47,176 bases of DNA from Arcobacteraceae bacterium (GTDB lineage: Bacteria > Campylobacterota > Campylobacteria > Campylobacterales > Arcobacteraceae), in the NCBI GenBank assembly GCA_029934475.1, contig JAOZMC010000004.1, positions 1-47,176 of the forward strand, given 5' to 3'. Of the stretch, positions 2,268 through 47,176 are shown piece after piece. Position 1 is the stretch's first letter; every line of letters starts with the position of its first letter. Under the pieces are notes generated by a model. The model saw nothing but the letters and a program-made list of their open reading frames with translations. It was not told where the DNA came from and did no database searches. Both the position numbers and the translations under genes were made by a program.

Positions 2268-4276
2268 ACGACCACCATACCTATATAGTAGCATCGCATA
2301 CATCGCATAGCTTCTGCCACAGCTTCGTGTTGGGTGAAACCTAGATTTACTTCTAGGTTGTTTGATTTTCTAGTGTCTGTGTCTAGTTTTTCACTATGTT
2401 CTCGTGGCAATCCTGGCATCCAGCTCGTGATCTTTTCATTTTTGTTATATACTTTAAGTCGGCTAAAGTGGTCTTGCATGATCTCATCATCTGTCAAACT
2501 AACTTTGCCGTCATAGATATATCTAGATATGACACTTGATGCTCTTTTGGCTTGTCCTACGGCATTGACTATAGTCATAGGTCCGTATTCACAATCACCT
2601 GCGGCAAACAGACCAGCACGACTAGTCATATAGTCTCTGCCATTGGTTAGCAGTGTCCCCCATGAAGTCATCTCTAGCTCCCAATCTTTTGGTAGTATTT
2701 GTAGATCAGAACTTTGAGAGACTGCTGGTATGACAAAGTCGCACTCTATCTCATAGCTTTTGCCCTCTTGTTTGACTAGCTGAGCTCTACCACCGTCTGG
2801 GTCAGGAACTAGCTCAAATATATCTACTATGAGTGATTTTAGCACACCGTCTTTGTCTATAAGCTTGTTTATAGCACTATAAAACACAAACTCCACACCC
2901 TCTTCCACTGCTTCTGTGTATTCTTCTAGAGTAGTGTTTCGTATGATAGTTTTCTCATCTCTACGATATAACATGATCACTCGTTTAGCTCCCTCTCGTA
3001 TAGAACATCGCACCACATCCATAGAGGTAAATCCACCACCTACACATACGATAGTTTTGCCTTCTAACTCTTCTTTAGCTGGTGAGCCTATACGGTATTT
3101 GTGCCACAAATTGACCTTGTCAAGCATCTCTATAGCGCCCCAATATCCTACTATATCTGGATTTTCGTTTTCACATCGTATCGCTTTGGATAGCCTAGCA
3201 CCAAAACCTAGCATAGTAGCATCAAACTGCTCGTCTATCTCTTTTAACCTATCTGCAGTTACTTTGTGGTTTTTGATGATCTTGACTGTCGGCATATCTT
3301 CCACTAGCTTGATATCTTGGTTGTATTTTTCTATAGGCATACGGTATTGTGGCACACCTACGGCTACTTCACCACCCAACACTGGCAACTCTTCAAATAT
3401 AGTCACATCTATACCCTCTAACCCTAGATAATATCCAGCAGTGAGACCAGCAGGACCTGCTCCTATGATAGCTACCTTTTTGCCATCGTTTTTGGGTGGT
3501 TTTGGTTTGGTAGGATGAAACCACTGCAAAGCATGGTCTGTCTCATAGTCAGCGCCTATTCGTTTGAGTTCCATGATAGATATAGGCTCATCTAAGTTGG
3601 CTCTACGACAAGCATCTTCACATGGGTGTGGGCAAACTCTCCCACAAGTATGAGATAGTGGCATAGTTTGTCGTGTGGCTTTGAGCGACGCTTCAAAATC
3701 CAAATCCCTAACTCCCTCTATGTATGCAGGTATATCTACATGAGACGGACATAGATCAGTGCAAGGAGCTGTCACATTTGCTATATATTTGCTGTCGTCT
3801 TTTGCATATCGTGGCGATGGAGTTTGCTCCTGTATACATCGCATAAAATCTTTTTCAAAATATTTTATCATATATAGTAGTGGCACTGGCACAGTTTTGC
3901 CTATCTCACATTTGCTAGTCTCTTTCATAGTGGAGCTTATCTCTTTGAGATGTGCCAGATCGCTTCGCTCGCCATCTCCTCGCCCAATTTTATCCAATAT
4001 ATCGTATAATATCCTACCGCCCCACCTTCCGGGGGCACACCTGCCACAGGCTTGACTATATTCTTGGTATTGTCTAGCATAGTTGGTGGCTAACTGGACT
4101 ATATCTGTGTTTTTGTCAAATATAGCAAAACCACTCCACCCTACAAATGCTTTGGTCGGTTGGTCTTTGTCAAACTCAAATGGCAACTTGTGGGCTGTCT
4201 CTTTGATATCGCCAGCTGTTTTGCCACGGTTGTCTATGATCTCATCTTGCCATATAGAAAAATATATCTTGCTCAT
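2264..4276 (-). CDS. NuoF-position flavoprotein: NuoF Fe-S-like N-terminus fused to a GltD-like FAD/NAD(P) oxidoreductase
   Basis: A 670-residue protein in the nuoF position, probably an alternative electron-input subunit of complex I. Residues about 1-150 resemble the C-terminal Fe-S part of NuoF: C77 and C80 are in place and C123 sits at the distance of the fourth N3 ligand, but the third position is G83. From about 165 it is GltD-like (small subunit of glutamate synthase): cysteines C172/C176 and C211/C215/C219/C223, an FAD-binding GAGPAG at 272-277, a second dinucleotide-binding VGGGFTSMD near 412-420, and an AAGD motif near 558-561 typical of the FAD domain. A final CxxC is at C659/C662. 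The NuoF FMN/NADH fold is absent. Related proteins occur in nuo operons of Sulfurimonas-like bacteria. The electron donor (NAD(P)H, ferredoxin or flavodoxin) cannot be read from the sequence. Confidence 0.85.
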   Translation of the reverse strand: MSKIYFSIWQDEIIDNRGKTAGDIKETAHKLPFEFDKDQPTKAFVGWSGFAIFDKNTDIVQLATNYARQYQEYSQACGRCAPGRWGGRILYDILDKIGRGDGERSDLAHLKEISSTMKETSKCEIGKTVPVPLLYMIKYFEKDFMRCIQEQTPSPRYAKDDSKYIANVTAPCTDLCPSHVDIPAYIEGVRDLDFEASLKATRQTMPLSHTCGRVCPHPCEDACRRANLDEPISIMELKRIGADYETDHALQWFHPTKPKPPKNDGKKVAIIGAGPAGLTAGYYLGLEGIDVTIFEELPVLGGEVAVGVPQYRMPIEKYNQDIKLVEDMPTVKIIKNHKVTADRLKEIDEQFDATMLGFGARLSKAIRCENENPDIVGYWGAIEMLDKVNLWHKYRIGSPAKEELEGKTIVCVGGGFTSMDVVRCSIREGAKRVIMLYRRDEKTIIRNTTLEEYTEAVEEGVEFVFYSAINKLIDKDGVLKSLIVDIFELVPDPDGGRAQLVKQEGKSYEIECDFVIPAVSQSSDLQILPKDWELEMTSWGTLLTNGRDYMTSRAGLFAAGDCEYGPMTIVNAVGQAKRASSVISRYIYDGKVSLTDDEIMQDHFSRLKVYNKNEKITSWMPGLPREHSEKLDTDTRKSNNLEVNLGFTQHEAVAEAMRCMRCYYIGMVVV

Positions 4277-4285
4277 ATCTTTTGC

Positions 4286-4549
4286 CTAGTCGTTTGTGTC
4301 TGTGGTCTTTTGTGTCCGCGGAGCTGTCTTTTTGACTATTATTGTCCAGTCTACTTCGTTGAACTTGAGAGAATTCATGAGAGTCCAGTTGTGTTTTCGC
4401 ACTATGTCCGCTGACTTTTGGACAGCGGTAAAGTCGCCTATCTCAAACAATATTATAGCATTTTCGCCATCTTTTATATCGCTGTTTATCAGCTCTATCA
4501 TTCTGTCACCAAAGTTTTCTTTCAGTGGTCTTAGATCATATCTTTTCAT
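4286..4549 (-). CDS. Small NuoE-position protein, no Fe-S ligands
   Basis: An 87-residue protein in the nuoE position of the operon. It resembles the short proteins that occupy this place in Campylobacter and Helicobacter (Cj1575c/HP1264 type). Canonical NuoE is a roughly 160-residue thioredoxin-fold protein carrying a [2Fe-2S] cluster; this one contains no cysteine at all and so cannot bind it. It lies 9 bases after nuoD and 9 before the GltD-like flavoprotein gene. I infer a structural or docking role in the replaced input module. Assignment rests on position, size and overall resemblance. Confidence 0.75.
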   Translation of the reverse strand: MKRYDLRPLKENFGDRMIELINSDIKDGENAIILFEIGDFTAVQKSADIVRKHNWTLMNSLKFNEVDWTIIVKKTAPRTQKTTDTND

Positions 4550-4558
4550 ATTTTGCTC

Positions 4559-5785
4559 CTATCTATCTATCTCGCCAAACACTATGTTTAGGTTTCCTAT
4601 GATCGTGACCACATCCGCTAGCTGGTGTCCAGGTAGTAGGTCTTGTAGCAAACCAGTATGCCAGAAACTAGGTGCTCTAACTTTGAGTTTATATGGATAT
4701 GGCGAACCGTCGCTGTTGATATAAAATCCTAGCTCTCCTTTGGGTGATTCGGTTGCTACATATATTTCTCCAACTGGTGGTCGCATACCTTGGGTTACTA
4801 GCACAAAATGTTGCATGAGAGAATAGTTTTGTGTCATCATCTGCTCTTTTGTAGGCGATAGATATCGTGGGCTGTTTGCCATCAGCTGTGTGTCGGTTTT
4901 TTCATATATAGGCACAAGCTGTTTTAGTATCCTCATCGATTGTCTCATCTCTTGCATATAGCATAGATATCTGCCGTAGCTATCACCTCTGTCAGACACT
5001 GGCACATCAAAGTCAAGTTCGCTGTATAACTCATAAGGCATCTCTTTTCGCAAATCCCACTTAACTCCACTCGCACGAAGAGCAGGACCAGTCACTCCCC
5101 AACTTTTCGCCATATCTTTAGATATCACTCCTACATTTTCTAGTCGCATTCGCCATATTCTGTTTTTGGACAACAGCCCCTCATATGTTTCTAGCTGTTC
5201 TGTCAAAATTGTCATAAATTTCTGTAGATCGTTTAGCCAGTTTTCCGGCAAATCAAGTGGCACTCCACCTATACGGACGGCACTATGTGTGAGTCTGGCT
5301 CCACAATACTCCTCCATCAAGTCCATAGCATATTCTCGCTCTCTAAAAGCATACAAAAATATACTCATAGCTCCTACATCAAGTGCATGAGTTGCAAGCC
5401 AAAAAAGGTGCGATATGATACGATTTAACTCCAAAAGCATAGTTCGTATAGCTTGAGCTCTTCGTGGAGCTTCTATACCTATAAGTCTCTCTACGGTCAA
5501 GGCAAATCCATAGTTGTTTGCAGTAGCGGCTATATAATCCATACGATCGGTTGTGGGCAAAAATTCGTTGTATATCATATTTTCGCCCATCTTTTCCATA
5601 CCTCTGTGTAGGTATCCTACATCCGGCACTGCTTTTATGACCTCTTCGCCTTGTAGCTCTAGTATCAGTCTGAGTTGTCCGTGAGCGGATGGGTGTTGTG
5701 GTCCAAAATTGACCACCATGGTATTGTCTTCTCTGTCAAACGATATGTTTTCGAAAAATGGTTTTAGCCTGTTTGGTTGTTGCAT
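4559..5785 (-). CDS. nuoD: NADH-quinone oxidoreductase subunit D (NuoD, 49 kDa)
   Basis: Quinone-pocket subunit of complex I, related to the large subunit of [NiFe] hydrogenases. The protein has 408 residues, full length for the unfused form. The N-terminal [14 protein letters not shown] at about residues 26-39 is the family signature that lines the quinone cavity; GYLHRGMEK follows near residue 57, and the C-terminus ends with the GEIDR typical of NuoD. A good ribosome-binding site (GGAG) precedes the ATG. It lies 9 bases after nuoC. Confidence 0.97.
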
Positions 5786-41409: not shown

Positions 41410-41742
41410 ATGGATAAAACAATAGACAAGATAAAAATGATATTAGATGACAAAAAGGCTACAGATATAGCAGTGTTTGATCTATCAAAACAAAGTTATA
41501 TAGTAGATACAGTGGTGCTGTGCACCAGCTTAAACGACAAACATGCACACTCGCTCATAGATAGTCTCAAGACCGATCTCAAAGTAGATGGTGAGGAGTT
41601 TTTAAGAATAGACGATGGCGATGGCTGGATAGCTATAGATATGGGCGATAAGTTAGTGCATATCATGACAGATCAGTTTAGGCAACGATACGATATGGAT
41701 CAATTTCTAAAAGATTTTGGCAAAAAGGAAACAAATGAATAA
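41410..41742 (+). CDS. rsfS: Ribosomal silencing factor RsfS
   Basis: 110-residue protein that binds uL14 and blocks subunit joining during slow growth. Typical sequence blocks: KKATDIAVFDL, TVVLCTSLNDKHAHSLID, GWIAIDMGDKLVHIM and QFRQRYDMDQFL. Three bases after rimM; its end overlaps the next start by 8 bases. Confidence 0.93.
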   Translation: MDKTIDKIKMILDDKKATDIAVFDLSKQSYIVDTVVLCTSLNDKHAHSLIDSLKTDLKVDGEEFLRIDDGDGWIAIDMGDKLVHIMTDQFRQRYDMDQFLKDFGKKETNE

Positions 41743-42352
41743 AAATATATTACTAGCAGTAGTCGTAGCATCGCTGTTTTTTGTAGCATGTGAAGATAAA
41801 CAAACGATAACAGAAGAGAATCTAGCGAAAAAAACAGACAATAGTAAACAGGAGCAAACAAAAACAGAACCAAAAGAGACGATTTTTAACTTTAAAACAA
41901 CTAATGGCAAAGATATAAAGATAGCTATCAGCGATGATGGCTGGAAATTCCAATCACATGGCTATGAAAATAAAATTGTGTTGCTAGACTTTTTTGCTAC
42001 TTGGTGTCCGCCGTGCAAAAGAGGTATACCGCACCTAAACAACATAATAGAAAAATACAAAGAGGATGTAGTAGTACTAAGTTTGGAGATAGGCAAGCGA
42101 GGCACAGGTGAAGTAGAAACTGTAGAACACCTACAAAGCTTCATCAAACAATATGAGATGAAATACGATGTAGTAAATGGTGAAAAAACAAATGAGATGA
42201 TGTATGGACTAAAATCACTCAACGAAAACGGCTCTATACCATTTATAGTGATGTTTGACAAGCACGGTCACTATAGCGAAAGTTTCGTAGGTATGGCAAC
42301 TCAAGAGATTTTAGAAAAACAGATACAAGAGATCATGAAAGAGGAGAAATAG
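41735..42352 (+). CDS. TlpA-like thioredoxin lipoprotein 1
   Basis: A 205-residue periplasm-facing lipoprotein: signal with lipobox LFFVAC (Cys19), a charged linker, and a thioredoxin-fold domain with C91-x-x-C94 in FFATWCPPCKR, and a cis-proline loop in GSIPFIVMFD. TlpA/ResA-type proteins reduce disulfides, for example during cytochrome c maturation. Starts at the ATG at 41735 after AAAAAGGA; an upstream TTG at 41717 is rejected. A second gene of the same type follows directly. Confidence 0.85.
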   Translation: MNKNILLAVVVASLFFVACEDKQTITEENLAKKTDNSKQEQTKTEPKETIFNFKTTNGKDIKIAISDDGWKFQSHGYENKIVLLDFFATWCPPCKRGIPHLNNIIEKYKEDVVVLSLEIGKRGTGEVETVEHLQSFIKQYEMKYDVVNGEKTNEMMYGLKSLNENGSIPFIVMFDKHGHYSESFVGMATQEILEKQIQEIMKEEK

Positions 42353-42892
42353 TTGAAAAAATTATTTTTTGTTTTTTTCTCTGTAGCACTACTTTTTTTC
42401 ATAGGTTGTGATGAAAAAGAAGTTGCCAAAAAACCGGTAAAAAAGCCTATCAAAAAAGTTTTCGTGCTGAAAAATTTTGACAACAACAAAAGTATAACCA
42501 TAAGACGAAACAACACAACTTTCAAAGCTGACAATGGCAAGGTTACGGTTGTTGATTTTTTTGCTACTTGGTGTGCTCCTTGCAAAGTAGAAGCTGAACA
42601 TCTCAACGAACTATATGAAAAATATGGGTCAGACATAAATATAGTATTGGTGTCGTTGGAAAAAAAGCTATCCAAACAGGGATTGGATAAATTTAAGAGA
42701 GATAACAAAGTCAAATACAACATAGTCCACAACAAAGATGGCTTTGCATTGTCCAAAGCTATAGGCATAGTTCGGTCATATCCTACTATGTTTTTGATAA
42801 ACAAACAAGGCAAAATCATAGAAAAATATGTAGGTATAGTGCCTATAGAGATGCTAGAGTATGACATAGAAAAAACTATAGGACAACAGTAG
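42353..42892 (+). CDS. TlpA-like thioredoxin lipoprotein 2
   Basis: A 179-residue paralogue of the protein before it: lipobox LFFIGC (Cys19), lysine-rich linker, C74-x-x-C77 in FFATWCAPCKV, and a SYPTMFLI cis-proline loop. The redox centre is CAPC, not CPPC, which usually shifts the redox potential. The start is TTG after GAGGAG, directly after the preceding stop codon. A tandem pair with different active-site dipeptides suggests two substrates or a relay. Confidence 0.85.
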   Translation: MKKLFFVFFSVALLFFIGCDEKEVAKKPVKKPIKKVFVLKNFDNNKSITIRRNNTTFKADNGKVTVVDFFATWCAPCKVEAEHLNELYEKYGSDINIVLVSLEKKLSKQGLDKFKRDNKVKYNIVHNKDGFALSKAIGIVRSYPTMFLINKQGKIIEKYVGIVPIEMLEYDIEKTIGQQ

Positions 42893-42893
42893 T

Positions 42894-43724
42894 TTGTTTG
42901 ATATTTTTAAAAGCAAAAAACAGACTAAGCTAGGTTTTGATGATATAGAAATCAAGCTAATAGAGTCGGATATAGACTACGATATAGTGCAAGATATTAT
43001 GAGAGGATTGCCAAAAGAAATATCGCAAGACCAGCTCAACAGTAGGTTATATGAGATGTTTGGACCTGCTAACAACGATACAAAACCTCTCACAGATGAC
43101 AAACCGTTTGTAGAGCTAGTGTTTGGTGTAAATGGTGCTGGCAAGACCACTACTATAGCAAAGTTAGCGAACCTATACAAACAACAGGGCAAAACTGTCA
43201 TACTTGGAGCTGGTGATACATTTCGTGCGGCCGCTATAGAGCAGCTAGATATATGGGCTAGCAAGTTATCTGTGCCTATAGTCAAGACACAGCAAGGACA
43301 CGATAGTAGTGCAGTAGCATACGATACTATTTGCAAGGCAGTAGCCAAAGGCATAGACCGTGTCATCATAGATACAGCAGGGCGACTTCAAACCCAAAAG
43401 AACCTAAACAAAGAGCTACAAAAGATTGTAAAAGTTTGTCAAAAAGCCCAACAAAATGCACCACAGAGAAAACTTTTGATAATAGACGGCACACAAGGAG
43501 GCACAGCAGTAGCGGGTGCTAAAGAGTTTCACGATATCGTAGGTATAGATGGAGTTATCATCACAAAGCTAGATGGCACAGCCAAAGGCGGAGCGGTGTT
43601 TGGTGTCTCTCATACTCTAGGATTGCCTATATTGTATGTAGGGTATGGCGAAAAACAAGACGATATTAAAAAGTTTTCGCCAAAAGAGTTTGTAGATGAT
43701 TTGACAAGGAGTATATATGGATAA
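42894..43724 (+). CDS. ftsY: Signal recognition particle receptor (FtsY)
   Basis: SRP receptor GTPase, 276 residues; it lacks the acidic A domain of the E. coli protein, as usual in this phylum. GVNGAGKTTTIAKLA at about 78-92, DTFRAAAIEQL, DTAGR, TKLDGTAKGG and the closing KKFSPKEFVDDL. The TTG start lies one base after the stop of the thioredoxin gene. Confidence 0.96.
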   Translation: MFDIFKSKKQTKLGFDDIEIKLIESDIDYDIVQDIMRGLPKEISQDQLNSRLYEMFGPANNDTKPLTDDKPFVELVFGVNGAGKTTTIAKLANLYKQQGKTVILGAGDTFRAAAIEQLDIWASKLSVPIVKTQQGHDSSAVAYDTICKAVAKGIDRVIIDTAGRLQTQKNLNKELQKIVKVCQKAQQNAPQRKLLIIDGTQGGTAVAGAKEFHDIVGIDGVIITKLDGTAKGGAVFGVSHTLGLPILYVGYGEKQDDIKKFSPKEFVDDLTRSIYG

Positions 43725-44094
43725 ATTTGTTGAAATATCTTTTGAAGAGTTTAAAGACAATTTTGAACCGATACAAAATTTTATGGATGATGAAGCTGGT
43801 ATGAGTGGTATATTGTTTGATATTTATGGCGATGAGCTGGAGTATATCAAAGAGGAGTCATCTGCTGGGACTGTCTGGACTTTGATACAAAAGCATGATG
43901 ACAGATATATACTAGAGGGGTTTCATATCACAAATAGAGCAGGATATATCATCACATCTATAACAAATACAGATATGAAAACAAAGCTCAAAGTAGTGTT
44001 TGAGGCACAAGGGACAACACCAGAACAACCACAAACAGAAGCCACACAGATAGATAGTAGCCTATGGCAAAAGATAAAGCAGTTTTTTCGATGA
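43717..44094 (+). CDS. Unknown acidic protein between ftsY and ruvA
   Basis: A 125-residue protein I do not recognise. It is acidic and mixed alpha/beta, with a hydrophobic strand pattern in the middle ([23 protein letters not shown]), a Pro/Gln/Thr-rich linker at 98-112, and a short amphipathic C-terminal helix ([10 protein letters not shown]). No signal peptide or transmembrane segment. It overlaps ftsY by eight bases and ruvA by four, so it is certainly translated in this operon. Confidence 0.65.
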
Positions 44095-44645
44095 TAGTAG
44101 GACTAGTAGGAATCATAGAAAAAAAGGAACCCACAAGGATAGAGCTAAATGTCCAAGGAGTTATATATGAGGTGTTTATATCTATCAACTGTAGTAGTAA
44201 AATACAGAGCAAAGATATCACAATACAAACTACGCATATTATCAAAGAGGAGTCCTCAAATCTATATGGCTTTGTAGACAAAGATGAGCAGAAAATGTTT
44301 GACACAGTTATCAAGATAAATGGAATAGGACCCAAAGTAGCACTGGCTATCTGTAGCACATTTACCCCAGGTAATTTCGCTACAATAGTAGCAAACAAAA
44401 GTGTAGATATGCTAAAATCTGTGCCAGGCATAGGACCAAAAGGTGCTAGTAGATTGCTAGTGGAGCTTAGTGGTTTTGTAGTCGATGGTGATGATGATAA
44501 AAGTAGTATACATATACAAGAAGCCACTATGGCATTGGAGAGTTTGGGTTTTAAAAAAGAGCAGATAAGAAAAGCGATAAGTGGATGTAATATAGGCGAT
44601 ACAGCGGAGCTTATACGACAAGCACTCAAAAGATTACAAAGGTAA
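44091..44645 (+). CDS. ruvA: Holliday junction DNA helicase subunit RuvA
   Basis: 184-residue tetrameric junction-binding subunit that loads the RuvB motor. The N-terminal OB fold begins [12 protein letters not shown]; two helix-hairpin-helix motifs follow ([12 protein letters not shown] near 71-82, [16 protein letters not shown] near 106-121), and the C-terminal domain III is [15 protein letters not shown]. The ATG at 44091 overlaps the previous stop (ATGA); a start at 44064 would add residues from the preceding gene. Confidence 0.95.
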
Positions 44646-44648
44646 AAT

Positions 44649-45683
44649 ATGGTATATGGTATAATATTTGGAAGCAAAAGTTTCGAACACGAGATAAGTA
44701 TAGTCAGTGCTATCGCTATGAAAAAGGTGCTAGACAGACAGCCTGTCTATATTTTTGTAGATAGCCAAAAGCAGTTTTATAATATACCAGCAGAGAAGAT
44801 CACATCAAAGTTGTTTAGTAGCGGGAGTTATAAAAAGTTTGATACTCTCACTATAAAGCATGGTGGGTTTTTTTCTAAAACTATGTTTGGTGAGACTAAA
44901 CTAGAGTTTGATGTCGTTTTGAACTTGATACATGGCAAAGATGGAGAAGATGGCACTGTGGCATCGTTGTTGGAGTTTTTTGATATAGCTTATATAGGAC
45001 CACGACTAGAAGCGAGTGCCATAAGCTACAACAAAACCTTGACAAAACTATATGCCAAGCATAAAGCAGTGGCGGTATTGGAGTTTGAAAGTTTCAAAAA
45101 AGATGATGATATAGTAGTAGATAATTATCCTGTCATCATCAAGCCATCGTGTCTAGGAAGTAGCATAGGGGTGTCTATAGTGAAAAACAGAAATGAGCTG
45201 CAATATGCTGTAGATGTGGCATTTGAGTTTGATGATGAGATCATAGTCGAGCCGTTTATCAAAGATATCAAAGAGCTAAACATAGCAGGAGCCTGTATAG
45301 ATGGTGAGTTTGTATTTTCTATCATAGAAGAGCCTCAAAAGGGCGAGTTTCTGGATTTTGAAAAAAAGTATCTAGATTTTAGCAGAACTTCACAAGTCTC
45401 AAGAGCCGATATCAGCGATAACTTAGCAAAAAAAGTGAGAGATACTTTTGCCAAAGTTTATAACAACACATTTACAGGAAGTATCATAAGATGCGACTTT
45501 TTCATATACAAAGAGGAGATAGTGCTAAACGAGATAAACTCTATCCCCGGTAGCTATGCTAACTATCTGTTTGATGATTTTAACCAAGTCATAGATGGCG
45601 TGGCTAGAAGTTTGCCACAGATTATAGATATAAAGATTGATTATGCTTATGTAAACAAGATACAACAAGCAAAAGGTAAATAA
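44649..45683 (+). CDS. ddl: D-alanine-D-alanine ligase (Ddl)
   Basis: Makes the D-Ala-D-Ala dipeptide for peptidoglycan. 344 residues, ATP-grasp fold. I see KSFEHEISIVSA near 10-21, LIHGKDGEDG near 93-102, KPSCLGSSIGVS near 164-175, and NEINSIPGS near 297-305. Starts with ATG 3 bases after ruvA. The ATPase gene that follows begins only 3 bases after its stop. Confidence 0.95.
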   Translation: MVYGIIFGSKSFEHEISIVSAIAMKKVLDRQPVYIFVDSQKQFYNIPAEKITSKLFSSGSYKKFDTLTIKHGGFFSKTMFGETKLEFDVVLNLIHGKDGEDGTVASLLEFFDIAYIGPRLEASAISYNKTLTKLYAKHKAVAVLEFESFKKDDDIVVDNYPVIIKPSCLGSSIGVSIVKNRNELQYAVDVAFEFDDEIIVEPFIKDIKELNIAGACIDGEFVFSIIEEPQKGEFLDFEKKYLDFSRTSQVSRADISDNLAKKVRDTFAKVYNNTFTGSIIRCDFFIYKEEIVLNEINSIPGSYANYLFDDFNQVIDGVARSLPQIIDIKIDYAYVNKIQQAKGK

Positions 45684-45686
45684 ATC

Positions 45687-46763
45687 ATGACAAAACTGAT
45701 AGTAAAAAATTTTGGAGTATTGAAAGATATAGATATAAATCTTAACAAAACAAATCTTTTTATCGGTGAAAATGGTGCAGGCAAGAGTGTGTTAGCTAAA
45801 CTTATCACTATTGTTACCACTATGATATTAACCGAAGATGAAATATTTAAAAAATTTAAAGACTATAATATAGATTTTATTAGCGATGATACTATTATAA
45901 AATTGATAGGAAAAGAAGATACTATATTTGAATTAAAAAATAAAAAAATCAAATTGATGCCAAGCACTGTTAGATTGGCAGAACTTTATCCTATATTAGA
46001 ACCCGTAATAAAATTAGAGAAAAATAAAACAGAACAAGATAAGGGGCTATTGGAAATAGAAACACAGTTCAACCAGTTTGTATCACAATATATTCCAGCA
46101 GAGAGAAATCTAATATCAATATTTAACAATTCACTTAGTAATTTTATCGTAAACGATATGCCACTACCCAAAACACTTTTGGAGTTTTCAGCACAATACA
46201 ACAAAGCAAGACAGGAGATACAGCAGTTAGATCTGTTGGATATAAAATTTGAAACAGATGGCAAAAAAGATAAAATATATTACAATAGGACAGAATTTTT
46301 GTCTTTGGAGCATAGCTCTAGTGGTATTCAAGCAGCAGTTCCTATGTGTCTTGCAGTCAAGTATTTTAACACAAAACACGACCATATCATAATAGAAGAA
46401 CCAGAGCTAAATCTATTTCCAAAAGCACAAGTAGATATAGTCAGGTTTATCATAGAAAATAGCGACAACAATCTATATCTCATGACACACAGCCCATATA
46501 TTTTGTCCGCTCTAAACAGCTCTATACTTGCATATAAGATATCAAAAAAAAGCAAAACACAAAAACAAAAAGCAGACAAGATTATCCCTGCATCTCAACA
46601 AATAGATCCAAGCGAGTTTGGTGCATACTTGATAGAAAATGGCACCGCAATAGATATAGTAAGCAAAAGAGGACTGATAAATGAAAATTCTATAAGCAAA
46701 TGCAGTGAAGATATAGATGATGAGTTTTATAGCTTGATGGATATCTATGGCGAGATAAAATAG
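45687..46763 (+). CDS. ABC-type AAA ATPase (AAA_21/OLD-like), candidate defence ATPase
   Basis: A 358-residue ATPase of the SMC/ABC-like class found in phage-defence systems. Walker A is GENGAGKS at 27-34; a YIPAERNLIS block at 135-144 is characteristic of AAA_21-type proteins; signature S210-SSGIQAA; Walker B IIIEEPE at 234-240 and the switch His268 in THSPYIL. There is no long coiled coil. Downstream, with no gap, is a probable PD-(D/E)xK protein. First-half base composition is somewhat richer in A/T than the ddl gene, but Ile is still mostly ATA. Alternative: a housekeeping ATPase of unknown role. Confidence 0.8.
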   Translation: MTKLIVKNFGVLKDIDINLNKTNLFIGENGAGKSVLAKLITIVTTMILTEDEIFKKFKDYNIDFISDDTIIKLIGKEDTIFELKNKKIKLMPSTVRLAELYPILEPVIKLEKNKTEQDKGLLEIETQFNQFVSQYIPAERNLISIFNNSLSNFIVNDMPLPKTLLEFSAQYNKARQEIQQLDLLDIKFETDGKKDKIYYNRTEFLSLEHSSSGIQAAVPMCLAVKYFNTKHDHIIIEEPELNLFPKAQVDIVRFIIENSDNNLYLMTHSPYILSALNSSILAYKISKKSKTQKQKADKIIPASQQIDPSEFGAYLIENGTAIDIVSKRGLINENSISKCSEDIDDEFYSLMDIYGEIK

Positions 46764-47176
46764 ATGATAAATATAGACAAAAAATGTATACAAAATATCT
46801 CAAAAACTCACTTTTTTATAAGTGATGATACAGAAAATAAGCCAGCTTTTATCACAGATAAGTTGGCACAATTTGAGGTCAAAAACAATACAAAAGAAAA
46901 TATATCTTTTTTGCAAATAGATGAGTGTGTCTATAATTCAAGTAATGGCAAAAGATGTGATTGTGCTATATACAGCAGTGATACATTTTGTTTTGTGGAG
47001 CTTAAGGATTGTAAGAAAAAAAACAAACAAAAAAATAGGAAGAATGCACGAGATCAGCTGATACAAACTATACAAGATTTTAGAGATAATCCGATAATAA
47101 AAGAAAAAAAACTAGAAGCATATGTATCTTTGAGTTGTAAAAAAGAGATAAAAATAACCCCAATTTTACACACTCC
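46764..47176 (+). CDS. Putative PD-(D/E)xK-type protein, 3' end cut by the window edge
   Basis: Open from the ATG at 46764, directly after the ATPase stop codon, to the right edge: 137 codons, the C-terminus missing. The motif D66...E79-x-K81 in CDCAIY and FVELKD has the spacing of a PD-(D/E)xK nuclease core, with E54 a possible upstream acidic residue and a helix starting ARDQLIQTI at 95-103, where the family often has a conserved Gln. There are several cysteines (C55, C65, C67, C76, C83). I do not know a named family. Nuclease activity is inferred. Confidence 0.55.
   Translation, partial: MINIDKKCIQNISKTHFFISDDTENKPAFITDKLAQFEVKNNTKENISFLQIDECVYNSSNGKRCDCAIYSSDTFCFVELKDCKKKNKQKNRKNARDQLIQTIQDFRDNPIIKEKKLEAYVSLSCKKEIKITPILHT

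Follow-up and report, generated by a model that had tools for sequence, protein, structure and literature searches.

A pair of adjoining genes, A and B, at the end of the window (the whole stretch of 47,176 nucleotides analysed, from contig JAOZMC010000004.1 of an Arcobacteraceae bacterium) is, in our judgment, probably a horizontally acquired anti-phage module, a candidate of the class that joins an OLD-type ABC ATPase to a PD-(D/E)xK nuclease (PDC-M29), and it most resembles the WonAB system. The case is built on the families and motifs of the two proteins, on their linkage in other genomes, on the comparison of filled and empty insertion sites, and on the way in which the C-terminal tail of A varies together with B.

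The A-B pair between ddl and moeA

Gene A starts 3 nt after the stop codon of ddl (45683 to 45687), the housekeeping gene that hosts the insertion on its upstream side, and the ATG of B (46764) follows the last base of A (46763) on the same strand with no gap. These coordinates agree with a sequence-only reading of this DNA, which had placed the pair 3 bases after ddl and the second gene directly at the stop of the first. Position 47176 lies at the edge of an assembly gap inside B and is no biological end: the contig (C39, 56,068 bases) continues with a 100-N scaffold gap immediately after it, which conceals the 3' end of B and the start of moeA. Extending the sequence past this point had been proposed, and the copy in G039, one of the three other genomes of the genus that were searched, supplied the answer. 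It carries a complete ddl-A-B-moeA arrangement with an intact B of 164 aa, whose stop overlaps the moeA ATG by 4 nt; its ddl scores above an NCBIfam cut-off, and the genes beyond moeA are of the hydrolase, SulP and dapE types, as read from their sequences.

Promoter-like matches over 43600-47176 were at chance level (19 found, 16.5 expected), with one 9-of-12 site inside ddl (45460-45487) and none of note between ddl and A. Terminator-like sites in the same scan numbered four against 1.3 expected, all within ddl and none between ddl and B. As the stretch from ddl to A showed no promoter, the pair is probably expressed from the ddl-moeA operon. Some other A-B loci have a leader of 36-49 nt 5' of A with TATAAT and a GAGGTA-like run. 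Further upstream in the window, two tandem thioredoxin-like lipoprotein genes followed by an ftsY-like gene were read from the sequence at 41717-42892.

Table 1. Coordinates in the window of ddl, the A-B pair and the motifs of both proteins
Feature	Position	Strand	Basis
ddl (D-alanine--D-alanine ligase)	44649..45683	+	Pfam Dala_Dala_lig N and C
Gene A, 358-aa OLD/Rad50-type ABC ATPase (PDC-M29A)	45687..46763	+	PADLOC 6.3e-36; AF2 pLDDT 91.8
A Walker A GENGAGKS (residues 27-34)	45765..45788	+	sequence; K33, S34 invariant in 57
A YIPAER block, invariant R140	46089..46106	+	sequence and alignment
A ABC signature SSSG (residues 210-213)	46314..46325	+	sequence and alignment
A Walker B IIIEEPE (residues 234-240)	46386..46406	+	sequence and alignment
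A H-loop THSPY (residues 267-271)	46485..46499	+	sequence and alignment
A C-terminal segment, where B is proposed to dock (residues 271-358)	46497..46760	+	covariation with B; chimaeras L053, L054
Gene B, PD-(D/E)xK-like effector, N-terminal 137 aa (full length about 164 aa)	46764..47176	+	PADLOC PDC-M29B 3.8e-18
B active-site region D53 ... D66 ... E79-L-K81 ... Q98	46920..47057	+	conservation over 72 sequences

The product of gene A matches Pfam AAA_15/AAA_21, and its top PADLOC match, PDC-M29A, ranked first among the 84 families listed at E values up to 1. The full ABC-type motif set and the YIPAER block, both recognised in the sequence-only reading, are all present, and K33, S34, R140, S212, G213, E237, E238 and H268 are invariant across 57 aligned A proteins. 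When the AF2 model, made from the same 57-row alignment, was compared with solved structures, the closest folds were PtuA of the retrons Ec78/Ec83 and of Septu (for retron PtuA, VIA Z 17.7 over 268 residues, rmsd 4.0), followed by SMC/Rad50 heads.

For the second protein, PDC-M29B is the top PADLOC match (3e-18 for the complete G039 copy) and was matched by 63 of 72 B proteins at 1e-4; Pfam and NCBIfam gave no above-cut-off match for B, and the commonest Pfam match over the 72 proteins, in eight of them, was a weak one to HSDR_N_2. D66, which lies in an RCD motif, and K81 are invariant among the 72 aligned sequences, and conservation reaches 90% or more at C8, D53, E79 and Q98, so that the D...ExK motif with a following Gln stands as first read. 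A structure was predicted from a full-length relative (L056, 72-row alignment, pLDDT 91.5) in place of the partial B of the window. Its best Foldseek matches, weak at E 8.9e-3, were structures of Nt.BspD6I; re-alignment with VIA placed Can2, McrC, FokI, Hjc and Avs4 at Z 4.5-6.0 (best 6.0), in the same list as acetyl-CoA carboxylase (Z 5.7) and Rab GTPases (near 5). Searching PDB sequences with the B profile gave unconvincing matches only, the best being an amphibian ribonuclease at E 0.02. From the fold matches taken together with the D53/D66/E79-x-K81/Q98 pattern, we read B as a PD-(D/E)xK-like nuclease, as had been expected of the second protein, though the structure-match scores are weak.

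Linkage, insertion sites and movement of the pair

A profile of five A proteins matched at least 592 stretches in the named genome collection, at least 424 of which encode an A relative, and the best 80 of these loci were kept. An intact adjoining B (130 aa or more) was present in 72 of the 80, and the two genes are thus linked well beyond this genome. The exceptions were an open B frame without the usual start codon (L050), a split or broken B (L061, L100 and L121), a B cut by the contig end (L055 and L116), a remnant (L060) and a single locus with no B at all (L085). Judging from record titles, eleven of the best 80 loci belong to Campylobacterota and the majority of the others to Bacteroidota. 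The trees of A and B are concordant (mirror-tree r 0.68 over 80 pairs, with none of 999 permutations as high), a figure that treats related loci as independent and includes one locus entered twice, as L030 and L056.

Within the phylum the distribution is patchy: of the 104 family genomes three gave a match to the B model, as did six of the 397 phylum genomes, own genome included in both counts. A pattern scan of IMG/VR returned no A relative, plasmids gave no A at E 1e-6, and neither plasmids nor phages gave B at E 1e-3. The phage search with A returned two matches, both short, unannotated human-gut records titled 'Bacteriophage sp.' (best 31% over 99% of A, E 1e-35), which leaves room for a mobile carrier.

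Comparison with related genomes at the ddl locus indicates that A-B is foreign there, inserted and not ancestral; the sequence-only reading had proposed this comparison. G037 and G038, of the same genus, lack the pair, and their ddl stop overlaps the moeA start by 1 nt, so that the two genes overlap directly in two of the four genus genomes. The GC fraction is 0.31 for A and 0.28 for B against 0.36 for ddl and 0.39 for moeA. No target-site duplication was seen when filled and empty ddl/moeA junctions were compared.

Nor is the pair generally conserved at ddl across Campylobacterota; other genomes carry it at other sites. In G117, of the same order, A-B lies between apt and trpB; trpB directly follows apt in 17 of 19 other apt loci of the family (gap of 2 nt or less, many overlapping), the remaining two being L164, where trpB is in the same place and the ORF caller missed apt, and L165, which shows no trpB. 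A relative with a B of the short type lies between cdsA and dxr in G301, and these two genes are at most 12 nt apart in 17 of 19 other loci (127 nt in L143; L146 was unreadable). Elsewhere the pair follows purT or tex or precedes pyk, and at three loci (L049, L053 and L054) it precedes hypF. Around another 70 loci (L057-L126, mostly Bacteroidota, with L060 from Campylobacterota and a few others) 105 neighbours were scanned, and the 25 most frequent families included lysS (7), dxs (5), dnaK (3), corA (3) and accA (2); the seven cases flanked by lysS may share descent. Many of the named neighbours of A-B loci are thus housekeeping genes. The same 105 neighbours matched 134 PADLOC models at 1e-8, PDC-S05 and PDC-S23 appearing among the 25 most frequent models with three members each.

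It had been remarked that expression from a housekeeping operon would be unusual for a defence system. We assessed this with a crude, ORF-based measure that requires same-strand neighbours on both sides at gaps of 12 nt or less. By this measure A-B is embedded at 5 of the 14 Campylobacterota loci whose flanks could be seen on both sides (L008, L029, L050, L052 and L056); L030 duplicates the L056 locus, and L050 occupies the same site as L056. Among D12 methylase genes in this phylum, some of which may have the cognate restriction gene as a neighbour, 5 of 30 are embedded likewise (Fisher P 0.25); Gabija, with one locus in 394 genomes, was useless as a comparison. These figures do not support operon embedding as a special property of the pair, and the remark was not borne out: by this comparison the position cannot be clearly distinguished from where other accessory genes of the phylum lie, and insertion at the junction of two genes accounts for it.

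Several comparisons bear on how the module moves and diverges. L047 and L049 carry much the same module at different genomic sites: its last 1206 nt are 92% identical and its first 226 nt 83%, with a diverged stretch between; the similarity begins 36-38 nt upstream of A and stops at the stop codon of B. In the reverse situation, L049 and L053, from one MAG, hold different modules at a site that looks shared, with a HypF-like gene on one side and hypF on the other. The window pair and the G039 copy (L008; window 45687-47174) form a mosaic with two diverged blocks, the start of A and the core of B: dS per block is 0.41-0.75 for A codons 1-90 and B codons 46-135, against 0-0.16 for A codons 91-358, 0.09 for B codons 1-45 and 0.09-0.23 for the neighbouring genes. 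The pair might conceivably move itself in a homing-like manner, B (with A) cutting empty stop/start junctions and repair copying in the leader, A and B free of scars and with no transposase. This idea arises because the L047/L049 similarity ends exactly at the B stop and because empty junctions often overlap by a base or a few. We regard it as highly improbable; no target motif or duplicated site for such a move was seen, and selection for harmless insertions would give the same junction pattern.

The tail of A and its match to B

Two loci from different assemblies, L053 and L054, are natural chimaeras. The first part of their A is nearest to pairs with a long B (53-63% identity), while the C-terminal segment, apart from its counterpart in the other chimaera, has its closest relatives in L031 and L009 (55-59%; the next 41%). 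The B of both loci is likewise of the L031 and L009 short type (51-52%). In sequence, the last 80 or so residues of A thus travel with the matching B in these chimaeras. Just before the chimaeric A of L053, a 242-aa fragment of a defence-type ATPase resembling HEC-01A/MADS3 was observed at 4256-4984.

The same tendency was found over 79 pairs, in which residues 271-358 of A track B better than residues 1-270 do (r 0.76 against 0.69; bootstrap difference 0.01 to 0.16). The advantage resides in Campylobacterota (r 0.88 against 0.52) and is absent from the other loci (0.78 against 0.78), and it drops to 0.77 against 0.72 when the two chimaeras are removed. The tail was the better predictor of B at 56 of the 79 loci and the worse at 23, for which the sign-test P of 0.0003 is too optimistic, as related loci are counted as independent. 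Together, the chimaeras and the covariation suggest that B probably docks on the C-terminal segment of A. From independent data, this fits the docking of WonB predicted on the C-terminal extensions of dimerised WonA (PMC12137116). The chimaeras also offer a concrete and cheap handle on sensor-effector matching, as the last 80 or so residues of A should decide which nuclease it can use.

Known relatives and mode of action

The sequence-only reading did not recognise the combination, which nevertheless corresponds to PDC-M29 of PADLOC and is of the same kind as the published WonAB. Both genes match the A and B models of PDC-M29 best, adjacent, on the same strand and in the same order, and no difference between PDC-M29 and the window pair was found. 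PDC-M29 is attributed to unpublished candidates of Payne et al. (PMC11811056), and in two papers the PDC systems figure as candidates identified by 'guilt-by-embedding' that are unpublished or for the most part unvalidated. We found no paper naming or testing PDC-M29 among open-licence PMC papers and, as far as we found, PDC labels rest on genomic embedding and mostly not on tests. A-B very probably belongs to an already catalogued, mostly untested class of candidate anti-virus systems.

The closest tested system is WonAB, from the WASA-1 prophage of Vibrio cholerae, for which the published account (PMC12137116) states that both the ATPase and the nuclease residues are required and names K34, R182, E300 and H333 as key residues of WonA. 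The likeness is one of architecture and not of sequence comparison: both have an ABC ATPase with K, R, E and H in the same order and, after it, a small nuclease of the PD-(D/E)xK type in which a lysine is a key residue. K33, R140, E238 and H268 of A would be the equivalents of the WonA residues by their order, although the spacing from the Walker A lysine to the arginine is shorter in A (33 to 140, against 34 to 182). WonAB is also prophage-borne, whereas the window pair sits in a chromosomal housekeeping operon. Operons described as 'OLD-ABC ATPase + novel REase', and other OLD-ABC/nuclease dyads, likewise place an OLD-type ABC ATPase beside a stand-alone PD-(D/E)xK gene, a comparison made from their published descriptions (PMC12137116, PMC12839542).

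Other two-gene systems were less close. PtuA of Septu and retron Ec78 PtuAB is the closest solved fold to A, but PtuB is an HNH nuclease whereas B has no HNH match in Pfam or NCBIfam and carries D-ExK; Septu was rejected on this PD-(D/E)xK-like effector. PD-T4-4 is likewise an ATPase with a nuclease, and A matched PD-T4-4_A at 1.5e-16, much more weakly than PDC-M29A (6e-36), with no match of B to PD-T4-4_B. PARIS (AriAB) and Gabija share the OLD-type ATPase core with A (AriA 5e-16, GajA 3e-12). PARIS was set aside because B matches no AriB model and there is no TOPRIM (DUF4435) effector, and Gabija because the 358-aa A has no TOPRIM match and the next genes are B and moeA, with no helicase partner GajB.

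An anti-phage role for A-B is likely, and from the residue set and gene order shared with WonAB the best reading is a sensor/effector pair acting by abortive infection. A would dimerise around ATP and hold B through its C-terminal tails; an infection signal would shift the ATPase state of A and so license B, whose D-ExK site would then cut nucleic acid, and the infected cell would halt before phage release. WonAB is reported to act by abortive infection, arresting translation while genomic DNA stays intact, and its authors suggest rRNA or tRNA as the nuclease target; the substrate of B could be DNA instead of RNA.

Direct restriction, in which A scans or clamps DNA and B cuts the invading DNA without killing the cell, is the strongest alternative and a decidedly less likely one. 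Restriction and nicking enzymes are among the nearest folds of B, the weak similarity of eight of the 72 B proteins to HSDR_N_2 points the same way, and A resembles the DNA-clamping Rad50/SMC heads. However, the unit has no methylase or other self-marking gene, and the WonAB result described above is one of translation arrest with intact genomic DNA. The patchy and apparently mobile occurrence of a small nuclease with a partner would also suit an addiction pair of the toxin-antitoxin style, with B as toxin and A as its keeper, retained for its own sake. We consider this unlikely, as simple sequestration was ruled out for WonAB, whose nuclease WonB is reported to be toxic only with active WonA present, and a 358-aa ATPase would be a costly antitoxin. 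A role in host DNA repair, in the manner of SbcC/SbcD or RecF, which the Rad50/SMC-like fold of A, its regular nuclease-like partner and the housekeeping neighbours might recall, is very improbable given absence from most relatives searched, differing sites between genomes, low GC and degraded copies (L060, L100).

Within bacterial immunity, ABC-ATPase sensors with small nuclease effectors make up a large branch, most of it untested. The present case shows that such pairs can reside outside obvious defence islands and prophages, within housekeeping operons of Campylobacterota and, in Bacteroidota, next to lysS, dnaK and dxs. Searches by guilt-by-association might overlook them in such places.

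Some neighbouring finds were recorded along the way. At L052 (2450-6696) a PtuA-like and a PtuB-like gene lead directly into A-B, the gene ends overlapping, and the four may form one defence operon. At L031 (4466-13209) the short-B pair lies by a tyrosine recombinase and several small genes that by eye resemble toxin-antitoxin pairs, the region being bounded by rpiB-like and trpB-like genes. Downstream of the dapE-like gene are likely remnants of a type III DNA methyltransferase, at 7653-7925 of L007 (C39:51653-51925) and 1994-2485 of L008; the match is 7e-31 for the G039 copy (L008) and only 1e-4 for the G000 copy (L007). The genome of the window also holds a second pair on the minus strand (L002 810-2370; G000 contig C59:12275-16141), a 343-aa ATPase and a 179-aa D...EFK protein with no significant profile match to B, between genes read from sequence as rsmG-like and guaA-like. 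This layout recurs in G037 (L200), and G039 has the end of a copy beside guaA at a contig end (L199) and another copy elsewhere (L201).
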